From: a virus
IMG/VR virus record: IMGVR_UViG_3300015263_000257
Location: 1 to 23,413 of that record
DNA: 23,413 nt
Reading direction: 5' to 3' (one strand)
In this document: positions 96 through 4,414 of the stretch, in pieces
Numbering within the stretch: the first letter of the stretch is position 1
Layout: each line of letters opens with the position of its first letter
The notes under the pieces: model-generated
Databases searched by the model: none
What the model was told of the DNA's origin: nothing
The model's input: the letters and a program-made list of their open reading frames with translations, nothing else
Position numbers and translations under genes: made by a program

Positions 96-230
96 GGGAT
101 GATTACAGCCACAATATCTCGTATCTTCGGATACTCTTAGAGCAAAGTCTAGGTGAAACTAGAATAGGGACACAACCCGAAACAATAGAAGAGGTCTTAT
201 TAGGTTCCCGAAATCAAGAACCGCCATCCC
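96..230 (+). ncRNA. Structured RNA element 0 (Ro-associated family, divergent interior)
   Basis: The ends pair as GGGATG (96-101) with CATCCC (225-230). Eight bases after the first base of the stem comes TACAGCC, matching the T-W-C-A-G-C block of the five other elements. CATCCC is followed by GTAGAA, as in element 3. The interior is not a recognisable tRNA. It holds hairpins GTATC-TTCG-GATAC (121-134), TCTAG-GTGAAA-CTAGA (148-163), GGG-ACACAA-CCC (167-178) and GGTTC-N10-GAACC (203-222). The canonical tRNA begins nine bases downstream, so the two may be co-transcribed. Family membership rests on the ends only. Confidence 0.55.
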
Positions 231-239
231 GTAGAATAT

Positions 240-318
240 GCTCTCTTAGCTCAGTTGGTTAGAGCGGAATACTCTAAATATTTGTCATGCGTGGGTTCGA
301 GTCCCACAGAGGGCACCA
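240..318 (+). tRNA. tRNA with CUA anticodon (putative amber suppressor)
   Basis: This is a full cloverleaf in normal order with encoded CCA. Acceptor GCTCTCT (240-246) pairs with AGAGGGC (308-314) with one G-U pair; D arm GCTC/GAGC (249-252/262-265); anticodon stem GAATA/TATTT (267-271/279-283); loop CTCTAAA; T arm GTGGG-TTCGAGT-CCCAC (291-307); discriminator A315; CCA 316-318. The loop puts CTA (274-276) at positions 34-36, which reads UAG. The variable region is seven bases (284-290), longer than the usual four to five of class I tRNAs, so the molecule is slightly odd. No other anticodon register pairs as well. Only one small candidate ORF in the window ends in TAG, which is compatible with suppression but does not prove it. 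Confidence 0.8.
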
Positions 319-327
319 AGTTTCATG

Positions 328-335
328 TATAAATA
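328..335 (+). promoter_or_regulatory. TATAAATA late-promoter-like octamer
   Basis: An exact TATAAATA lies between the tRNA and the ATG at 368, about 33 bases upstream of that start. It matches the T4-type late promoter core. The position directly upstream of a gene with its own ribosome binding site makes it the best placed of the copies in this region. Confidence 0.45.
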
Positions 336-367
336 GTATATGTCGTGTAGTAATAAAGGGTATGTTA

Positions 368-682
368 ATGAAAACATTAACAACATTTTTGAACGAATCA
401 AGCCAAAGTAAAAAAGTATATGTCGGAAACTGTGTCAATTCTTTTGATGATGATGGCGAGTGTGTTGTACACCATCTTCCATATAGAGACACAACCGATT
501 TTGCTCAAGGTGAAGAAAATTCTAAGAAAATTAATAAATCGGAGTTTAACAAGCATGTTGATATTCCGAGTCACCTAGATAAGATTCATAAATCTAAAGA
601 TACTGTTTATTTGCACGACAGAGATAATAATGTACATATGATGTATGATCCGAAGAAAGATGTGCATCACTTTTTTGTCTAA
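368..682 (+). CDS. Conserved-looking hypothetical protein, 104 aa
   Basis: Start chosen at ATG 368 because AAAGGG (356-361) is seven bases upstream; an earlier in-frame ATG at 362 is too close to that site, and earlier codons fall inside the tRNA. The product is small, hydrophilic and rich in His, Lys and Asp. It begins MKTLTTFLNE and ends with a His-rich tail (VHHFFV). No signal peptide, membrane segment or domain is recognised. A TATAAATA octamer 33 bases upstream suggests late expression. It precedes the leader ORF/hairpin region and shares the strand of the whole accessory block. Function unknown. Confidence 0.75.
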   Translation: MKTLTTFLNESSQSKKVYVGNCVNSFDDDGECVVHHLPYRDTTDFAQGEENSKKINKSEFNKHVDIPSHLDKIHKSKDTVYLHDRDNNVHMMYDPKKDVHHFFV

Positions 683-701
683 TTAAAAAAGGAACAATAA
701 T

Positions 702-755
702 ATGACGAATGAAGGACATGGCGGCTAGCCGTATCACGCAATAGGTCCACCGTAA
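702..755 (+). CDS. Short leader-like ORF with an in-frame TAG
   Basis: An AAAAAAGGA ribosome binding site (685-693) stands eight bases before ATG 702. The frame reads MTNEGHGG, then TAG at 726-728, then PYHAIGPP and TAA at 753-755. Read normally it is an eight-residue peptide; with amber read-through it becomes about 17 residues, rich in Gly and Pro. The TAA is the first base triplet of the long hairpin that abuts the next gene's ribosome binding site. This geometry, with a CUA tRNA encoded 380 bases upstream, suggests a possible regulatory leader peptide. It may be a chance ORF; there is no homology support. Confidence 0.35.
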
Positions 756-792
756 ATTATAGTTGAACACAAATAAACTCAACTGTAATTTA
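753..792 (+). promoter_or_regulatory. Long hairpin abutting the ribosome binding site of the gene at 805
   Basis: Bases 753-766 pair with 779-792 over 14 positions (one T-G wobble), with a 12-base loop. The ribosome binding site AAGGA (793-797) begins at the base after the hairpin. The 5' arm overlaps the stop codon of the leader ORF. There is no T-run after it, so it is more likely an RNA-stability or translation-control element than a terminator. A smaller palindrome, CGGCTAGCCG, lies just upstream and contains the TAG. Confidence 0.6.
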
Positions 793-804
793 AAGGAACC
801 TATT

Positions 805-1188
805 ATGACTAATTTTATTGAAACATTCAAGGCTAAGGCCCACTCAAAGACTCTAACCTGTGCAGATATGGTTGCACTATGCATCTATCGCACTGTCAAA
901 GCCAAGTCGGAAGACAAGGTAACAATACTCAAACATTTTCTCAAAAAATCATTTACCGCTGGTAAGGTCTGTGCTCATAGGCAGTATCCTTATCAGGCTA
1001 TCACCAATGCGATGTATGGATTCAGCCATCAACTTCGTGGTGGTAGAAAGTGGATTGATGGTGAATGGAAAGTGACTAATGGATTTGTCCTTGGTGTCGA
1101 TGTAATGGAAATTTTGACGGATGAAGAGCTATTGACATTCCGTGAACTTGCCGCTATGATTGATAAAGACTTTGTAAGGAATCTTTGA
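805..1188 (+). CDS. Hypothetical protein, 127 aa
   Basis: ATG 805 is chosen because AAAGGA (792-797) lies eight bases upstream; the frame is open farther up to 763 but that part is in the hairpin. The product is basic and mixed alpha/beta in appearance. Its C-terminal part has an acidic helix (EILTDEELLTFRELAAM, about residues 103-120). No catalytic motif, signal peptide or membrane segment is visible. It ends TGA one base before the ATG of the PTH2-like gene at 1190, so the two are probably translated together. I do not recognise the family. Confidence 0.7.
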   Translation: MTNFIETFKAKAHSKTLTCADMVALCIYRTVKAKSEDKVTILKHFLKKSFTAGKVCAHRQYPYQAITNAMYGFSHQLRGGRKWIDGEWKVTNGFVLGVDVMEILTDEELLTFRELAAMIDKDFVRNL

Positions 1189-1189
1189 T

Positions 1190-1573
1190 ATGAGACATTA
1201 TGCTTATTTTTTCACACGACAGGATATCTCTCCTGAATATCAAGTAGTTCAGACTGCACATGCTGCATTTCAACTTGGTGTGTTTTCCCAACATGGGACG
1301 CCGTATGAAGGTGATGGGATAGTATCTCCACCACAACTTCACGGTATGCAAATCGATCCACGCGAAACTTATTTCACTGTGGTTGGTGTACGCAATCTGA
1401 CTGCTCTTAATGCAGTTGAACTTATTTTGAATAAGTTTGGTTTTGCGTATGAAGCATTTTTCGAGCCTGATCTTAATGGTGGTGAACATACTTCCATTGC
1501 AGTATACCCAATTGCAGAGGATAAAAAAGGTCCGTTGGACGCATTTAACCTCTTGACAATTGGTAGAAAGTAA
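1190..1573 (+). CDS. PTH2-like (peptidyl-tRNA hydrolase type II fold) protein, 127 aa
   Basis: The N-terminus (YAYFFTRQDISPEY, then VVQTAHAAFQLG at about residues 19-30) resembles the first strand and following helix of the PTH2 fold, in which a Q-x-x-H-A motif sits. The C-terminal EPDLNGGEHTSIAVYP (about 92-107) matches the D-x-x-x-x-x-T strand region. Phages commonly carry such short PTH2-like proteins. The lysine of true PTH2 catalytic sites is not obvious, so hydrolase activity is uncertain; it may bind tRNA or another RNA instead. It is one base downstream of the gene at 805 and seven upstream of the gene at 1580. The setting, amid a tRNA and tRNA-like RNAs, is suggestive. Family call is by pattern memory only. 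Confidence 0.55.
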   Translation: MRHYAYFFTRQDISPEYQVVQTAHAAFQLGVFSQHGTPYEGDGIVSPPQLHGMQIDPRETYFTVVGVRNLTALNAVELILNKFGFAYEAFFEPDLNGGEHTSIAVYPIAEDKKGPLDAFNLLTIGRK

Positions 1574-1579
1574 TATATA

Positions 1580-1846
1580 ATGGCAGTATATACAGAATTG
1601 ACCAAAGACGATTTCAAGAAAATTATCTTTGATTACTTTGGTGATACTGCCAAGTTAGTCTCTTTTGAACCAATATCGGAGGGTGTATCAAACACTAATT
1701 ATATGGTCACTCTCCGATATTATACAGAAGAAGAACTAAAGCTTATCCGTGAAGAAATGGTTAAGCAGAATGAAAGAGCTTCGGAAGTAGCTAAGAAACG
1801 TGGATACAAACGTGATCCTAGAATCGAAGCTGCTAATCTGAAATAA
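1580..1846 (+). CDS. Small protein with a homoserine-kinase-like (ThrB/APH) N-terminus
   Basis: Residues 1-44 (MAVYTELTKDDF..., then FEPISEGVSNTNYMVTL) closely resemble the start of alphaproteobacterial homoserine kinase, where MAVYT and G-I-A-E-G-V-E-N-S-N open the aminoglycoside-phosphotransferase-like fold. After that the similarity ends, and residues 45-88 are a charged helix (EEELKLIREEMVKQNERASE). The protein is 88 residues against about 320 for the enzyme, so it cannot be an active kinase. It looks like a captured gene start joined to a new tail, and points to a rhizobial-type donor. Ribosome binding site is weak. The first tRNA-like element (1852) begins five bases after the stop. Confidence 0.65.
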   Translation: MAVYTELTKDDFKKIIFDYFGDTAKLVSFEPISEGVSNTNYMVTLRYYTEEELKLIREEMVKQNERASEVAKKRGYKRDPRIEAANLK

Positions 1847-1851
1847 GTTTT

Positions 1852-1948
1852 AGGATCGGTTCAGCAACCAAATAGTACGCCAATGGATGGCAATTTGTCT
1901 GCAAAACAAACCTTGGGGGTTCGATTCCCTCTACAAACCAACGATCCT
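1852..1948 (+). ncRNA. tRNA-like RNA element 1 (Cys, GCA anticodon)
   Basis: Closing stem AGGATCG (1852-1858) / CGATCCT (1942-1948); TTCAGCAA follows at the family spacing. Interior arms, in normal tRNA order: D-like GCC-AATGGAT-GGC; a perfect anticodon arm TTTGT-CTGCAAA-ACAAA whose GCA anticodon is that of cysteine; T arm GGGGG-TTCGATT-CCCTC. No acceptor stem forms between the flanks of these arms, so the family closing stem takes its place, joined by a roughly 17-base linker on the 5' side and about 10 on the 3' side. It is therefore not a standard tRNA gene. It lies between the stop of the gene at 1580 and the ribosome binding site of the gene at 1969; GTTGAA follows the stem. Confidence 0.8.
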
Positions 1949-1968
1949 GTTGAATCATGGAGAACATT

Positions 1969-2184
1969 ATGTCACAATGTGTTTGGAATGCCATGTTAGA
2001 CGATAAGTATGACTGTACAGTGATGCGTACAGGTGATTATACTGGCGTTCTAACAATTAAAGAAAATGATGAAACACTCTTTACAAAAGATGTTGAATTG
2101 AGTTATAATGCACAGTTCGGTCCAGATGCATTTGATGTTATGGACTGGCAGAATATGATTATTGAGTTTATCGATAGTCAATAA
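1969..2184 (+). CDS. Small acidic hypothetical protein, 71 aa
   Basis: ATG 1969 is preferred over the in-frame ATG at 1957 because GGAGA (1959-1963) then sits five bases upstream. The product starts MSQCVWNAML, has an alternating beta-like stretch (YTGVLTIKENDETLFTKDV) and a C-terminal helix ending MIIEFIDSQ. It is acidic with no signal peptide or membrane segment. It is wedged between two tRNA-like RNA elements: 20 bases after element 1 and six before element 2. Family not recognised; small acidic phage proteins in accessory regions often target host factors, but nothing here shows that. Confidence 0.7.
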   Translation: MSQCVWNAMLDDKYDCTVMRTGDYTGVLTIKENDETLFTKDVELSYNAQFGPDAFDVMDWQNMIIEFIDSQ

Positions 2185-2190
2185 AGTTTT

Positions 2191-2444
2191 GGGCTGTCTA
2201 CAGCATGTATTTCATTCCATCATAAGGACGAGGTTGCGGTGTTCGAGTCCCGCCGCCCCCACCACAATCCATTACCTCTTTGACCCTTAAGTAGGGTACG
2301 GTGGCTTTCTGGTCTATTCGTAAGTGGCCATAACGGTACATACCGGTTAGCGATAAGGTGTCAATAAGCTGTTGACATACCTGACGTAATGGATTATGAT
2401 GGGGGCGTAGCTCAACTGGTAGAGCGCGTAGAAATGTACAGCCC
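2191..2444 (+). ncRNA. Permuted tRNA-like RNA element 2 (Met, CAU anticodon)
   Basis: Closing stem GGGCTGT (2191-2197) / ACAGCCC (2438-2444), then CTACAGCA at the family spacing; GTTGAA follows the 3' strand. The tRNA 3' half comes first: TCC-ATCATAA-GGACG (CAT anticodon), a T arm with loop TTCGAGT and one bulged T in its stem, acceptor strand CGCCCCC (2254-2260), A, CCA (2262-2264). Then a structured 136-base insert. Then the 5' half: GGGGGCG (2401-2407, pairing all seven acceptor bases), TA, D arm GCTC/GAGC, G, CG. Joining ...GAGC-G-CG to TCC-ATCATAA-GGACG rebuilds a perfect five-pair Met anticodon stem. The order of halves is thus circularly permuted, with the break inside the anticodon stem. 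Confidence 0.88.
2266..2395 (+). other. Structured insert closing the acceptor stem of element 2
   Basis: A perfect 10-base inverted repeat, AATCCATTAC (2266-2275) / GTAATGGATT (2386-2395), stacks above the acceptor stem of element 2 across a five-by-five internal loop that contains the encoded CCA. Inside are further hairpins, such as CGGTA-CA-TACCG (about 2335-2346) and TGTCAA...TTGACA (about 2359-2377). It has no ORF. It makes element 2 about twice the length of its siblings. I do not recognise it as a known intron or riboswitch. Confidence 0.65.
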
Positions 2445-2464
2445 GTTGAATTAAAGGATTGATA

Positions 2465-2617
2465 ATGGTCAAAGATGTTTTTGAAGAGTTTACAATTGAT
2501 CTAGTTGTCAATTGCAACATGAATATGTTTGATGCACGAAAAATTGTTACATTCCTTCGTGGTGAAGGAATTATTGATTATGATATTCTCAGAAAGTATT
2601 ACTCTGAGAGTGAATAA
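2465..2617 (+). CDS. Small acidic hypothetical protein, 50 aa
   Basis: ATG 2465 has AAAGGA (2454-2459) five bases upstream, directly after the GTTGAATT tail of element 2. The product begins MVKDVFEEFTIDLVV and ends RKYYSESE; it is acidic and probably helical, with a central DARKIVTFLRGEG stretch. No domain recognised. Its stop is six bases before the closing stem of element 3. With the gene at 1969 it makes an alternating pattern of small protein, RNA, small protein, RNA. A good ribosome binding site and tight packing argue it is real despite its size. Confidence 0.7.
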   Translation: MVKDVFEEFTIDLVVNCNMNMFDARKIVTFLRGEGIIDYDILRKYYSESE

Positions 2618-2623
2618 AGTTTA

Positions 2624-2749
2624 GGGATGCTTACCGCAACTTGAAGCTATATGGAAACTATGGGTCGTTGGTTCGAATCCAACCCTCCCGGCCATTTATC
2701 GGGAGGTAGCTCAGCTTGGTAGAGCAATAGACAGCAAAAAGTGCATCCC
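2624..2749 (+). ncRNA. Permuted tRNA-like RNA element 3 (Pro type)
   Basis: Closing stem GGGATGC (2624-2630) / GCATCCC (2743-2749), then TTACCGCAA at the family spacing. The 3' half comes first: TGGAAACTAT, variable GGGTC, T arm GTTGG-TTCGAAT-CCAAC, acceptor strand CCTCCCG, G, CCA. A five-base linker TTTAT leads straight into the 5' half, CGGGAGG (seven perfect acceptor pairs), TA, D arm GCTC-AGCTTGGTA-GAGC, and ATAG, which pairs with CTAT of the 3' half. C1-G72 is typical of tRNA-Pro, and TGG stands at the anticodon position, though base 33 is A rather than T. It is circularly permuted with a closed acceptor hairpin, and the anticodon stem opens into the closing stem. Confidence 0.88.
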
Positions 2750-2770
2750 GTAGAAAAAACATGACATATC

Positions 2771-2914
2771 ATGCTTGACAAGCTAGTTCAGTTGATATAT
2801 CATGTACGAATTAAGGCAGACTACAGCAATCTTTACTTCTTTTTTGAAACAAAGGTCCGAGAAGGTTCGATTCCTTCGTGTGTTATGGTTAAGGAAACAC
2901 AACCTGCCTGTTGA
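2771..2914 (+). CDS. Possible small ORF, 47 aa, overlapping element 4
   Basis: ATG 2771 opens a frame to TGA 2914 that runs through the whole of RNA element 4. It would begin MLDKLVQLIYHVRIK, contain YSNLYFFFETKVREG and end with Cys. The composition looks protein-like, but there is no convincing ribosome binding site, and the same bases form clear T and anticodon arms. A 47-codon frame is not rare by chance. I list it because both readings cannot be dismissed; the RNA reading is better supported. Confidence 0.2.
   Translation: MLDKLVQLIYHVRIKADYSNLYFFFETKVREGSIPSCVMVKETQPAC
2814..2909 (+). ncRNA. tRNA-like RNA element 4 (Phe, GAA anticodon, no D arm)
   Basis: Closing stem AGGCAG (2814-2819) / CTGCCT (2904-2909), with CTACAGCAA at the family spacing and GTTGAT after it. 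Inside: anticodon arm CTTTT-TTGAAAC-AAAGG (2839-2855) with anticodon GAA (2846-2848), variable TCCGA, T arm GAAGG-TTCGATT-CCTTC (2861-2877), then a hairpin TGTGTT (2879-2884) / AACACA (2896-2901) at the place of the acceptor stem. No D arm remains. The order (anticodon, T arm, 3' acceptor strand, loop, 5' acceptor strand) is that of a permuted tRNA whose ends lie between D and anticodon arms, with the D arm lost. The CCA is not kept. Confidence 0.75.
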
Positions 2915-2918
2915 TTAA

Positions 2919-2981
2919 AGGTTAATTTCAGCAATCTAAATGCACTTGACTTGTAATCAAAACCGCAAAAAACGTTAACCT
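2919..2981 (+). ncRNA. tRNA-like RNA element 5 (minimal, Thr-type anticodon hairpin)
   Basis: Closing stem AGGTTAA (2919-2925) / TTAACCT (2975-2981), then TTTCAGCAA at the family spacing. The interior keeps only one hairpin, TTGA-CTTGTAA-TCAA (2946-2960), with the form of an anticodon arm: C32, T33, anticodon TGT (2952-2954, Thr), A37, A38. There is no T or D arm. At 63 bases it is the shortest member. It begins nine bases after element 4 ends, and its 3' strand runs into ATGGAGAA, the ribosome binding region of the Ro60-like gene. Confidence 0.65.
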
Positions 2982-3001
2982 GTATATAATGGAGAATTAA
3001 T

Positions 3002-4414
3002 ATGTCTTTTAAGAATGCCGTACTCGCAACTCCTGTTAAGGCCCGCACTACCAATGGTATGAAGGCTATCCGTTCAACTCTTTCCGAGACCGTTGATCTA
3101 TTCTTCAAGATCGGTGCTTCACGTGGTAAGAACATTACCTCACAGTTTGAACGCGCCTATCAGGAAGATCGTGATGTGGCTCTTCGTATCGCACAGTGGG
3201 CACGTGATGCTCGCGGCGGTGCCGGTGAGCGTGAGCTTTTCCGTCAGGTACTTCGTTACCTAGAAAAGAACCACAAGGAAGACTTGATTGAAACTCGTCT
3301 TCTAAAGAACACTGCTGAAATTGGTCGTTGGGATGATCTTTTGATCTTTACTGATGCCGAAGTCAAGCAGATTGCTTTCGGTCTTATCCGCGATGCTCTA
3401 GAGGCTGGAAACGGTCTTTGCGCTAAGTGGATGCCTCGTAAGGGCGAGAAGGCTGTAGAGCTTCGTGAGTTCCTTGGTTGGTCTCCTAAGTTCTATCGTA
3501 AGCGTCTTGTCGAGCTTACTGGCGTTGTAGAGAGCAAGATGTGTGCGAAGTGTTGGAATGAAATTAACTTTTCCCATGTTCCTTCACTTGCTATGTCTCG
3601 TTATTCCAAGGCATTTGGTCGTAATGCTCCCGATGCATTCACCAAGTACAAGGAAGCATTGAAGAAGGGTGATCCTTCTGTTAAGGTCAATGCAGGTGCT
3701 GTTTACCCATATGATATCGTGAAGAACGTACATTATGGTGACAACAAGCTTGCCGATGAACAGTGGAAGGCTCTGCCTAACTTCATGGGTGATGCCATGG
3801 TTCTACCACTTGTTGACGTTTCTGGTTCTATGACTGCTCGTGTAGGATCAGCAAACAGCAAGGGTGTTACTCTTACCTGTCTAGACGTTGCCGTTTCTCT
3901 TGGTTTGTATTGTGCAGACAAGAACACTGGTCCCTTCAAGGATTTGTTCTTGACCTTCTCAACCAACCCAACCTTCCAGCACTTGAAGGGTACCCTTTCC
4001 CAGAAGGTTAACCAGCTTCGTCGTGCTGATTGGGAAATGTCAACCAACCTACACGGTGCCTTCAACGAAATCTTGAAGGTAGCAGTTCGTAACAAGGTTG
4101 ATCCTGCTGATATGCCTAAGGTTCTCCTAATCATGTCAGATATGCAGTTCAACCAGTGCACCAAGTTCGATAACAGCGCGATTGAAATGATCCGCCGTAA
4201 GTACGAGGAAGCCGGTTACGAAGTTCCTGCTGTAGTCTTCTGGAACATCAATGCCTACGATAATGTTCCTGTGAAGTTCGATGAGAAGGGCGTTGCTCTT
4301 GTCTCTGGATTCTCACCAGCGATCATGAAGGCGGTACTTGGTGCTGATCTAGAAGGTCTAACACCAGAAGCAGTAATGCGTAAGGCAGTAATGTCTGACC
4401 GCTACACTCTTTAA
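3002..4414 (+). CDS. Ro60-like RNA-binding protein (TROVE/DUF2828 plus vWA domain)
   Basis: The 470 residues have the two-part plan of Ro60: a helical-repeat RNA-binding domain (about 25-260) and a von Willebrand A domain (about 265-460). Family signatures are RDARGGAGER (68-77) and INFSHVPSLAMSRY (188-201). The vWA metal site shows as DVSGS (272-276), a later Thr in STNLHGAF and Asp in MSDMQ. In bacteria, Ro60 (Rsr) binds Y RNAs and misfolded RNAs and can tether nucleases. Here the gene directly follows the array of tRNA-like RNAs, separated by 20 bases from the last, with GGAGAA before its ATG. Codon choice looks like that of a well-expressed gene. A terminator follows. The TROVE versus DUF2828 label is uncertain; the two groups look related. 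Confidence 0.85.
   Translation: MSFKNAVLATPVKARTTNGMKAIRSTLSETVDLFFKIGASRGKNITSQFERAYQEDRDVALRIAQWARDARGGAGERELFRQVLRYLEKNHKEDLIETRLLKNTAEIGRWDDLLIFTDAEVKQIAFGLIRDALEAGNGLCAKWMPRKGEKAVELREFLGWSPKFYRKRLVELTGVVESKMCAKCWNEINFSHVPSLAMSRYSKAFGRNAPDAFTKYKEALKKGDPSVKVNAGAVYPYDIVKNVHYGDNKLADEQWKALPNFMGDAMVLPLVDVSGSMTARVGSANSKGVTLTCLDVAVSLGLYCADKNTGPFKDLFLTFSTNPTFQHLKGTLSQKVNQLRRADWEMSTNLHGAFNEILKVAVRNKVDPADMPKVLLIMSDMQFNQCTKFDNSAIEMIRRKYEEAGYEVPAVVFWNINAYDNVPVKFDEKGVALVSGFSPAIMKAVLGADLEGLTPEAVMRKAVMSDRYTL

Follow-up and report, generated by a model that had tools for sequence, protein, structure and literature searches.

The window analyzed here is the whole of a 23,413-nucleotide (nt) stretch, positions 1–23,413 of the IMG/VR record IMGVR_UViG_3300015263_000257. 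It represents a 23.4 kb fragment of a T4-like tailed phage with genes for a gp59-type helicase loader, a gp32-type single-strand binding protein, and tube, baseplate and head-closure proteins. The window contains a Ro60-like gene (3002..4414, plus strand), whose product of 470 amino acids (aa) combines a helical N-terminal half with a von Willebrand factor A (vWA) domain, and, on the same strand, an array of six RNA elements (E1 to E6) that occupies the gaps between short open reading frames (ORFs) upstream of this 470-codon gene. An initial annotation had read the locus as a phage Ro60 system with an array of tRNA mimics. The six closing stems that it described, R-G-G-N4 paired with N4-C-C-Y, are all present, and E6 ends 20 nt ahead of the ATG at 3002. 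The remaining shared features proved less uniform than described: the T-W-C-A-G-C-A-A block does start 8 nt after the stem start in 6/6 elements but is degenerate (CAGCAA in E2, E5 and E6, CAGCAT in E3, CCGCAA in E4 and CAGCCA in E1), and the outer GTWGAA is exact in E1 to E4 but reads GTTGAT in E5 and GTATAT in E6.

The elements, all on the plus strand, differ in what the stem encloses. E1 (96..230; stem GGGATG/CATCCC, with GTAGAA outside) has several hairpins inside. E2 (1852..1948; AGGATCG/CGATCCT) is linear, with a D-like hairpin, an anticodon arm (1894..1910; TTTGT-CTGCAAA-ACAAA, Cys-type anticodon GCA) and then, in the normal order, a T arm (1915..1931), while the acceptor stem is absent. 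E3 (2191..2444; GGGCTGT/ACAGCCC) is a circularly permuted complete tRNA that runs from an anticodon-like arm through a T arm, the acceptor 3′ strand with ACCA, a long hairpin insert and the acceptor 5′ strand to a D arm. Its acceptor 3′ strand (2254..2264; CGCCCCC then ACCA) is base-paired within an extended acceptor helix, and the acceptor 5′ strand and D arm (2401..2425) lie 3′ of the T arm. E3 is conserved in the related loci L002, L003 and L020. The insert itself (2265–2400), which had no Rfam match, is large and structured, closes the acceptor helix, and is kept in these three loci but missing from the E3 homolog of L021. E4 (2624..2749; GGGATGC/GCATCCC) is a permuted tRNA with a T arm (2667–2683), an acceptor 3′ strand with GCCA (2684–2694), an acceptor 5′ strand (2700–2706) and a D arm (2709–2725). 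It was the only element to match the YrlA family (RF02553) in an Rfam scan of the window, at 41.2 bits (E = 3.9e−6), which does not reach the family cut-off of 69 bits. E5 (2814..2909; AGGCAG/CTGCCT) has a T arm (2861–2877) and a shortened, permuted acceptor, and the interior of E6 (2919..2981; AGGTTAA/TTAACCT) is an anticodon arm only (2946..2960; TTGA-CTTGTAA-TCAA, Thr-type anticodon UGU). The tRNA arms of five identities reported earlier are real in E2 to E6, though the identity is firm only for E2 and E6, and ARAGORN recognized a complete tRNA in 0/6 elements.

Using a comparison set of 98 gene-bearing loci from IMG/VR and named phages (labeled L001 and so on), we found that the elements constitute a genuine RNA family linked to the Ro-like gene. 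A motif scan of these loci returned 196 elements in the 172 kb just upstream of the gene, compared with 29 in 431 kb downstream, 2 in 138 kb of the gene itself and 5 on the entire 934 kb of the minus strand; in 89/98 loci, one or more elements lie in the 2 kb preceding the gene. Because circularity was to be avoided, pairing was assessed with 5′ anchors (RGG-N7-CAGCA) and 3′ anchors (CCYGT) picked without regard to it. The four variable bases are all paired in 75 of the 88 distinct anchor pairs and three are paired in 13, whereas all four are paired in 10% of shuffled partners and in none of the slid registers. These compensated stems comprise 28 different variable sequences. Aligning 51 short elements gave a covariation score of 0.62 versus 0.15 after shuffling. 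Their inner hairpin, which had no part in the selection, shows 84% pairing and both-sided changes at 5/5 pairs. Covariation supports the shared stem and the anticodon-arm helix alike, and the fully compensated stem proposed from the window alone is borne out in homologous loci. As a family, the elements have a terminal helix of 7–9 bp of any sequence, CAGCAA on the 5′ side and an A-rich stretch ahead of the 3′ strand.

The family also follows the gene through named phages. A covariance model (R1) built only from 51 short metagenomic elements was searched at E ≤ 0.01 against 27 whole phage genomes, 21 with the gene and 6 without. R1 matched 13/21 gene-bearing genomes, including Straboviridae, FelixO1, cyanophage, Staphylococcus and other phages, with the best match (1.5e−10) in Synechococcus phage BUCT-ZZ01. 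It matched 0/6 gene-free genomes (T4, T5, phiKZ, phiCbK, XacN1 and PAK_P1), tRNA-bearing phages in each of which the absence of the gene was verified, in keeping with the co-occurrence that the initial annotation had anticipated. In the window R1 recovered E2, which lay outside its training set (38.8 bits, E = 3.6e−7), and E6 (61.2 bits), an identical copy of which (from L001) belonged to that set. Under a looser motif scan, which gave 3 minus-strand matches over 20 loci, elements also appear in Listeria, mycobacterial, Campylobacter, Enterococcus and Bacillus phages, and 24 actinophage and 15 mostly Felix-type loci gave 101 plus-strand versus 4 minus-strand motif matches. Listeria phages LP-048 and cka17 (loci L096/L115) have three elements at the Ro-like gene. 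Genes for RtcB, RNA ligase and CCA-transferase were observed a few kb from the Ro-like gene (L096:7843–9054, L096:10614–11494, L106:2313–3572, L108:9071–9353 and L015:10875–11359).

Inside the common stem, the elements fall into classes that had been overlooked in the first reading: permuted tRNAs, anticodon plus T arms, and isolated anticodon arms, which are the most unusual. Counts of tRNA parts were compared with dinucleotide shuffles, 50 for T arms and 100 for anticodon arms. T arms occur in 37/139 longer elements versus 0 in the 50 shuffles, and the permuted order of T arm, acceptor 3′ strand, loop, acceptor 5′ strand and D arm in 16/139 versus 0 in shuffles; in the window this order is found in E3 and E4 and not in E1, E2 and E6. 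Actinophage and Felix-type elements run from docking strand and CAGCAA through an anticodon-like arm, T arm, acceptor hairpin and D arm to the second docking strand. Short elements (about 50–66 nt) have a single hairpin inside, and in 35/83 distinct short elements this is an anticodon-type arm (5 bp, 7-nt loop, U33), where shuffling gives an expected 0.75 and a maximum of 3. The loops of short elements carry anticodons including UGU, UCU, UUU, CUU, GUU, GUA, CAU, GAU and NGA, and anticodon loops keep their form (U33, A37) while the stems vary with compensation. Base 36 is A or U in 49/52 mimic loops versus 414/696 real tRNAs of the same loci (Fisher, 6e−8). Because many of these phages carry large tRNA sets, comparing the mimic anticodons with the tRNAs that the phages themselves encode gave no information. 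The loop TGCGGAT is common to short elements of mycobacteriophages and Felix-type phages (e.g., L121:6472–6521 and L148:6922–6975); like TGCATAT and TGCATAA, which occur in other short elements, it is not an anticodon loop and has no U33.

A second arrangement was found next to the gene in Cronobacter phage S13, Citrobacter phage Ci1 and BUCT-ZZ01, where un-permuted RNAs of 113–121 nt have a tRNA fold with acceptor, T and D arms and, inserted 3′ of the D arm, a closed hairpin with an A-rich/CAGCA (or CTGCA) internal loop. Several of them are annotated as tRNA-OTHER, pseudo-tRNA or tRNA-Ser, and one contains the E3 anticodon-arm sequence CATTCCATCATAAGGACG. Scanning for the closed hairpin in general gave no significant excess (61 plus-strand versus 56 minus-strand matches), and we retained only those hairpins that sit within a tRNA fold adjacent to the gene. 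Since the closed hairpin has the same internal loop, the permuted and linear RNAs look, from their sequences, like two topologies of one design in which a tRNA or tRNA part is joined to a common helix.

The protein encoded beside the array has relatives in 682 phage records. It matches the Pfam profiles DUF7788 (PF25043; E = 1e−49) and DUF2828 (PF11443; E = 3.3e−27) and the PHROGs family phrog_850, annotated as ‘RNA-binding protein’ (E = 4.7e−147). Structures were predicted with AlphaFold2 for the window protein and for proteins of the IMG/VR loci, and PDB fold matches were taken at E ≤ 0.001. The model of the window protein (predicted local distance difference test score, 77.6) had a sole match at this threshold, the Deinococcus radiodurans Rsr (2NVO; E = 7e−8), which spans the full length. 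The metal ion-dependent adhesion site (MIDAS) of the vWA domain is D272-V-S274-G-S276 (DxSxS) plus D380, and D272, S274, S276 and D380 are invariant among 29 sequences. Given that the one significant fold match is Rsr and that the MIDAS is invariant, the predicted structure supports calling the phage protein Ro60-like by fold. The earlier designation of the gene holds in this sense and not by sequence, by which the protein belongs to DUF2828/DUF7788 and not to the TROVE family.

These computations show that one conserved terminal helix with interchangeable tRNA-derived modules (an anticodon arm, an anticodon plus T arm, or a permuted acceptor/T/D domain) accompanies a Ro60-fold protein across unrelated phages. 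From this co-occurrence we infer that the helix and CAGCAA probably form the Ro binding site, such that the terminal helix and the CAGCAA internal loop would dock on the outside of the Ro ring in the manner of bacterial Y RNAs. CAGCAA opposite an A-rich strand appears to depart from the Ro-site consensus of bacterial Y RNAs. Each module would display the recognition surface of one tRNA part, and because modules would present such surfaces we propose that during infection the Ro particle may capture, tether or titrate enzymes that act on tRNA, above all tRNA-attacking nucleases (anticodon nucleases and polynucleotide phosphorylase, PNPase). The outcome would be a protected or redirected tRNA pool in phages that rely on large tRNA clusters. 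With less support than for the docking site, we infer that the modules may engage these enzymes as tethers or decoys; the loop form, the varied anticodons, the changing array content and the nearby genes for RNA ligase, RtcB and CCA-transferase favor a part in tRNA attack and repair. Overall, we consider it reasonably probable that the locus encodes a phage ribonucleoprotein of the Ro60/Y RNA type whose modules engage tRNA-acting enzymes.

Several observations weigh against this interpretation. In Pfam the phage protein had no match to the TROVE sequence profile, only to DUF7788 and DUF2828, and the best sequence match among PDB TROVE chains has an E-value of just 0.17. The idea of a multiplied, diversified set of tRNA mimics is upheld by the tRNA modules of E2 to E6 and of related loci but not by E1, the interior of which has no tRNA likeness; the same is true of its homologs in L019, L021 and L022 (found with nhmmer) and of several other long elements. 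No elements were found beside the gene in the Ro-like phages BF, K566 and Alsa_2, and those of S13 and Ci1 lie ~10 kb from the Ro-like gene. Lastly, YrlA is not cut by a tRNA-cutting anticodon nuclease in Salmonella (PMC7790460), so a mimic need not be a substrate.

As to whether the modules serve as tethers or as decoys, the available evidence favors neither. It is possible, if doubtful, that the anticodon-arm and tRNA mimics are substrates or competitive inhibitors of host anticodon nucleases and other tRNA-directed defense enzymes, with Ro as the carrier or as a collector of cut RNAs. The isolated anticodon arms, with natural-looking loops and many anticodons, would suit such a role, as would their preference for A or U at position 36, although this bias could stem from AT-rich sequence or loop geometry. 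Array content differs among close relatives, and tRNA-repair genes lie nearby. Competitive inhibition of an anticodon nuclease has been proposed for YrlA (PMC7790460), and anticodon stem-loop analogs have been studied as anticodon-nuclease substrates (Jiang 2002, as cited in PMC13191261). However, no such nuclease is known for the hosts, and in mycobacteriophages and Felix-like phages the short elements bear loops, TGCGGAT for example, that are unlike those of tRNAs. In its most general form we advance this idea only tentatively: phages across many host phyla may carry a Ro60-type protein on which the shared docking helix mounts a variable assortment of tRNA fragments, most of all anticodon arms, that serve host tRNA-attacking or tRNA-modifying enzymes as decoys or baits, making up a dedicated RNA-based counter-defense particle.

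Alternatively, the modules may equip the phage Ro ring with an exonuclease, whether host PNPase or a different one, as in the Deinococcus RYPER, to degrade structured host RNA or defective tRNA and rRNA, in which case the variety of modules would reflect loose constraint rather than specific tRNA mimicry. Recruitment of this sort is the mechanism that has been studied for a Ro/Y RNA complex of bacteria (Chen 2013, as cited in PMC7790460 and PMC8394870), and YrlA-like permuted T-acceptor-D modules do occur in T4-like, Felix-type and mycobacterial phages. We nevertheless regard it as fairly unlikely, given elements that consist of an anticodon arm only and lack the acceptor/T/D domain, the presumed route of YrlA to PNPase, and given anticodon loops that conserve U33 and A37 while their stems vary with compensation.

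The RNAs could also be permuted or split tRNA precursors that Ro and an RNA ligase process to functional tRNAs. The acceptor strands of the permuted E3 and E4 do end in NCCA and un-permuted versions with CCA exist in related phages, but the CCA of E3 is base-paired within a long helix, anticodon stems are often incomplete and elements with only an anticodon arm could never yield a tRNA, so that we consider this origin quite improbable. Least plausible, and in our view very improbable, is that the elements are by-products of tRNA clusters (decayed or recombined tRNA genes that share a stem through repeat spread and have no link to Ro): most of these phages are rich in tRNA genes and the elements often lie within the clusters, but the compensated stems have 28 different variable sequences, the family is absent from the six phages without the gene, and elements lie beside the gene in Vetrix and L098, where no tRNAs are annotated nearby.

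Other features of these loci deserve mention. Directly before E5 lies a promoter-like sequence, TTGACA-17-TATCAT (2775..2803, plus strand), that matches the consensus at 11/12 positions and also precedes the triple array of Listeria phage cka17, making it a putative promoter; a second promoter-like match, 2372–2400, overlaps the acceptor helix of E3 and was left uninterpreted. An ordinary tRNA with the amber anticodon CUA (240..315, plus strand; ARAGORN; Rfam tRNA, 59 bits) adjoins the array and is not a member of it. TAG ends 0/26 likely genes of the window, all of which end in TAA or TGA, and 16 CUA tRNAs were counted in related loci. Because the CUA tRNA stands beside E1 and none of the 26 genes has a TAG stop, these data suggest amber suppression with avoidance of TAG stops. 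A long inverted repeat (735–807), just ahead of an ORF at 805, drew spurious microRNA matches on both strands, and we set aside the weak Rfam microRNA and plastid matches in the window as chance or reverse-strand tRNA. In BUCT-ZZ01 a permuted tmRNA (RF04321, 111.9 bits; L016:738–1034) lies ~4 kb upstream of the Ro-like gene, and in the two Listeria phages a ROOL-type RNA (RF03087, 90 bits, slightly below the cut-off; L096:3460–4011 and L115:2461–3012) lies between the tRNAs and the Y-like array. YrlA matches in the tRNA clusters of DLP6, Ci1 and S13 were rejected, as the model bridges two neighboring ordinary tRNAs, taking in the T arm of the first and the D arm of the second; as L101, L102 and L104 show, such tandem tRNAs trigger the Rfam YrlA model and are a source of false positives in phage tRNA clusters.

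To our knowledge, the role of bacterial Ro60/Y RNA has been examined in few organisms and is still debated. Here a pairing of the Ro/Y RNA type occurs in many phages, multiplied and varied, including the genetically tractable FelixO1, mycobacteriophages and Listeria P100-like phages. If the modules dock on Ro, their natural variety would offer a ready-made panel on how Ro particles affect tRNA and tRNA-acting enzymes, and would suggest a new phage answer to tRNA-targeting defenses. The family also accounts for some of the ‘tRNA-OTHER’ or pseudo-tRNA annotations in phage genomes.

That phages have Ro/Y RNAs was already known or suspected. Ro/TROVE proteins occur in jumbo phages (PMC7824862), and mycobacteriophage Ro/Y RNAs have been described (Chen 2014, as reported by PMC12282133). 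In our mycobacteriophage loci a permuted tRNA element likewise adjoins the Ro-like gene, but there it stands between two short elements in a set of three. Listeria phage CKA15 has three non-coding regions with very high transcription within 2 kb of an Rsr-like gene; these were proposed to be Y RNAs, with no structure or motif described (PMC12282133). The closely related LP-048 and cka17 have their three elements in the corresponding place, upstream of the gene. Assuming collinear genomes, the hottest CKA15 region (26,236–26,727) falls on the ROOL-type RNA in cka17 coordinates and was rejected as the array, which leaves another of the three transcribed regions as the candidate counterpart of the Listeria array. 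In the papers that we searched, we found no account of arrays with one common docking helix, no Y-like RNAs consisting of an isolated anticodon arm, and no linear/permuted pair.

The phage protein resembles D. radiodurans Rsr (2NVO) in its full-length predicted fold and in joining a helical half to a vWA domain with MIDAS residues, but the two are only 12% identical and differ in Pfam assignment (DUF2828/DUF7788 rather than TROVE). In common with YrlA (RF02553) and Rsr, the RNAs form a terminal helix from their ends, include a permuted T-acceptor-D domain and lie adjacent to a Ro60-fold gene. Unlike YrlA, they come as several elements per locus and bear anticodon arms, sometimes alone, whereas YrlA has none, and E4 scores 41 bits against a cut-off of 69. 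With these likenesses and differences, the phage system looks like a widespread and largely undescribed variant of the bacterial Ro60/Y RNA kind.

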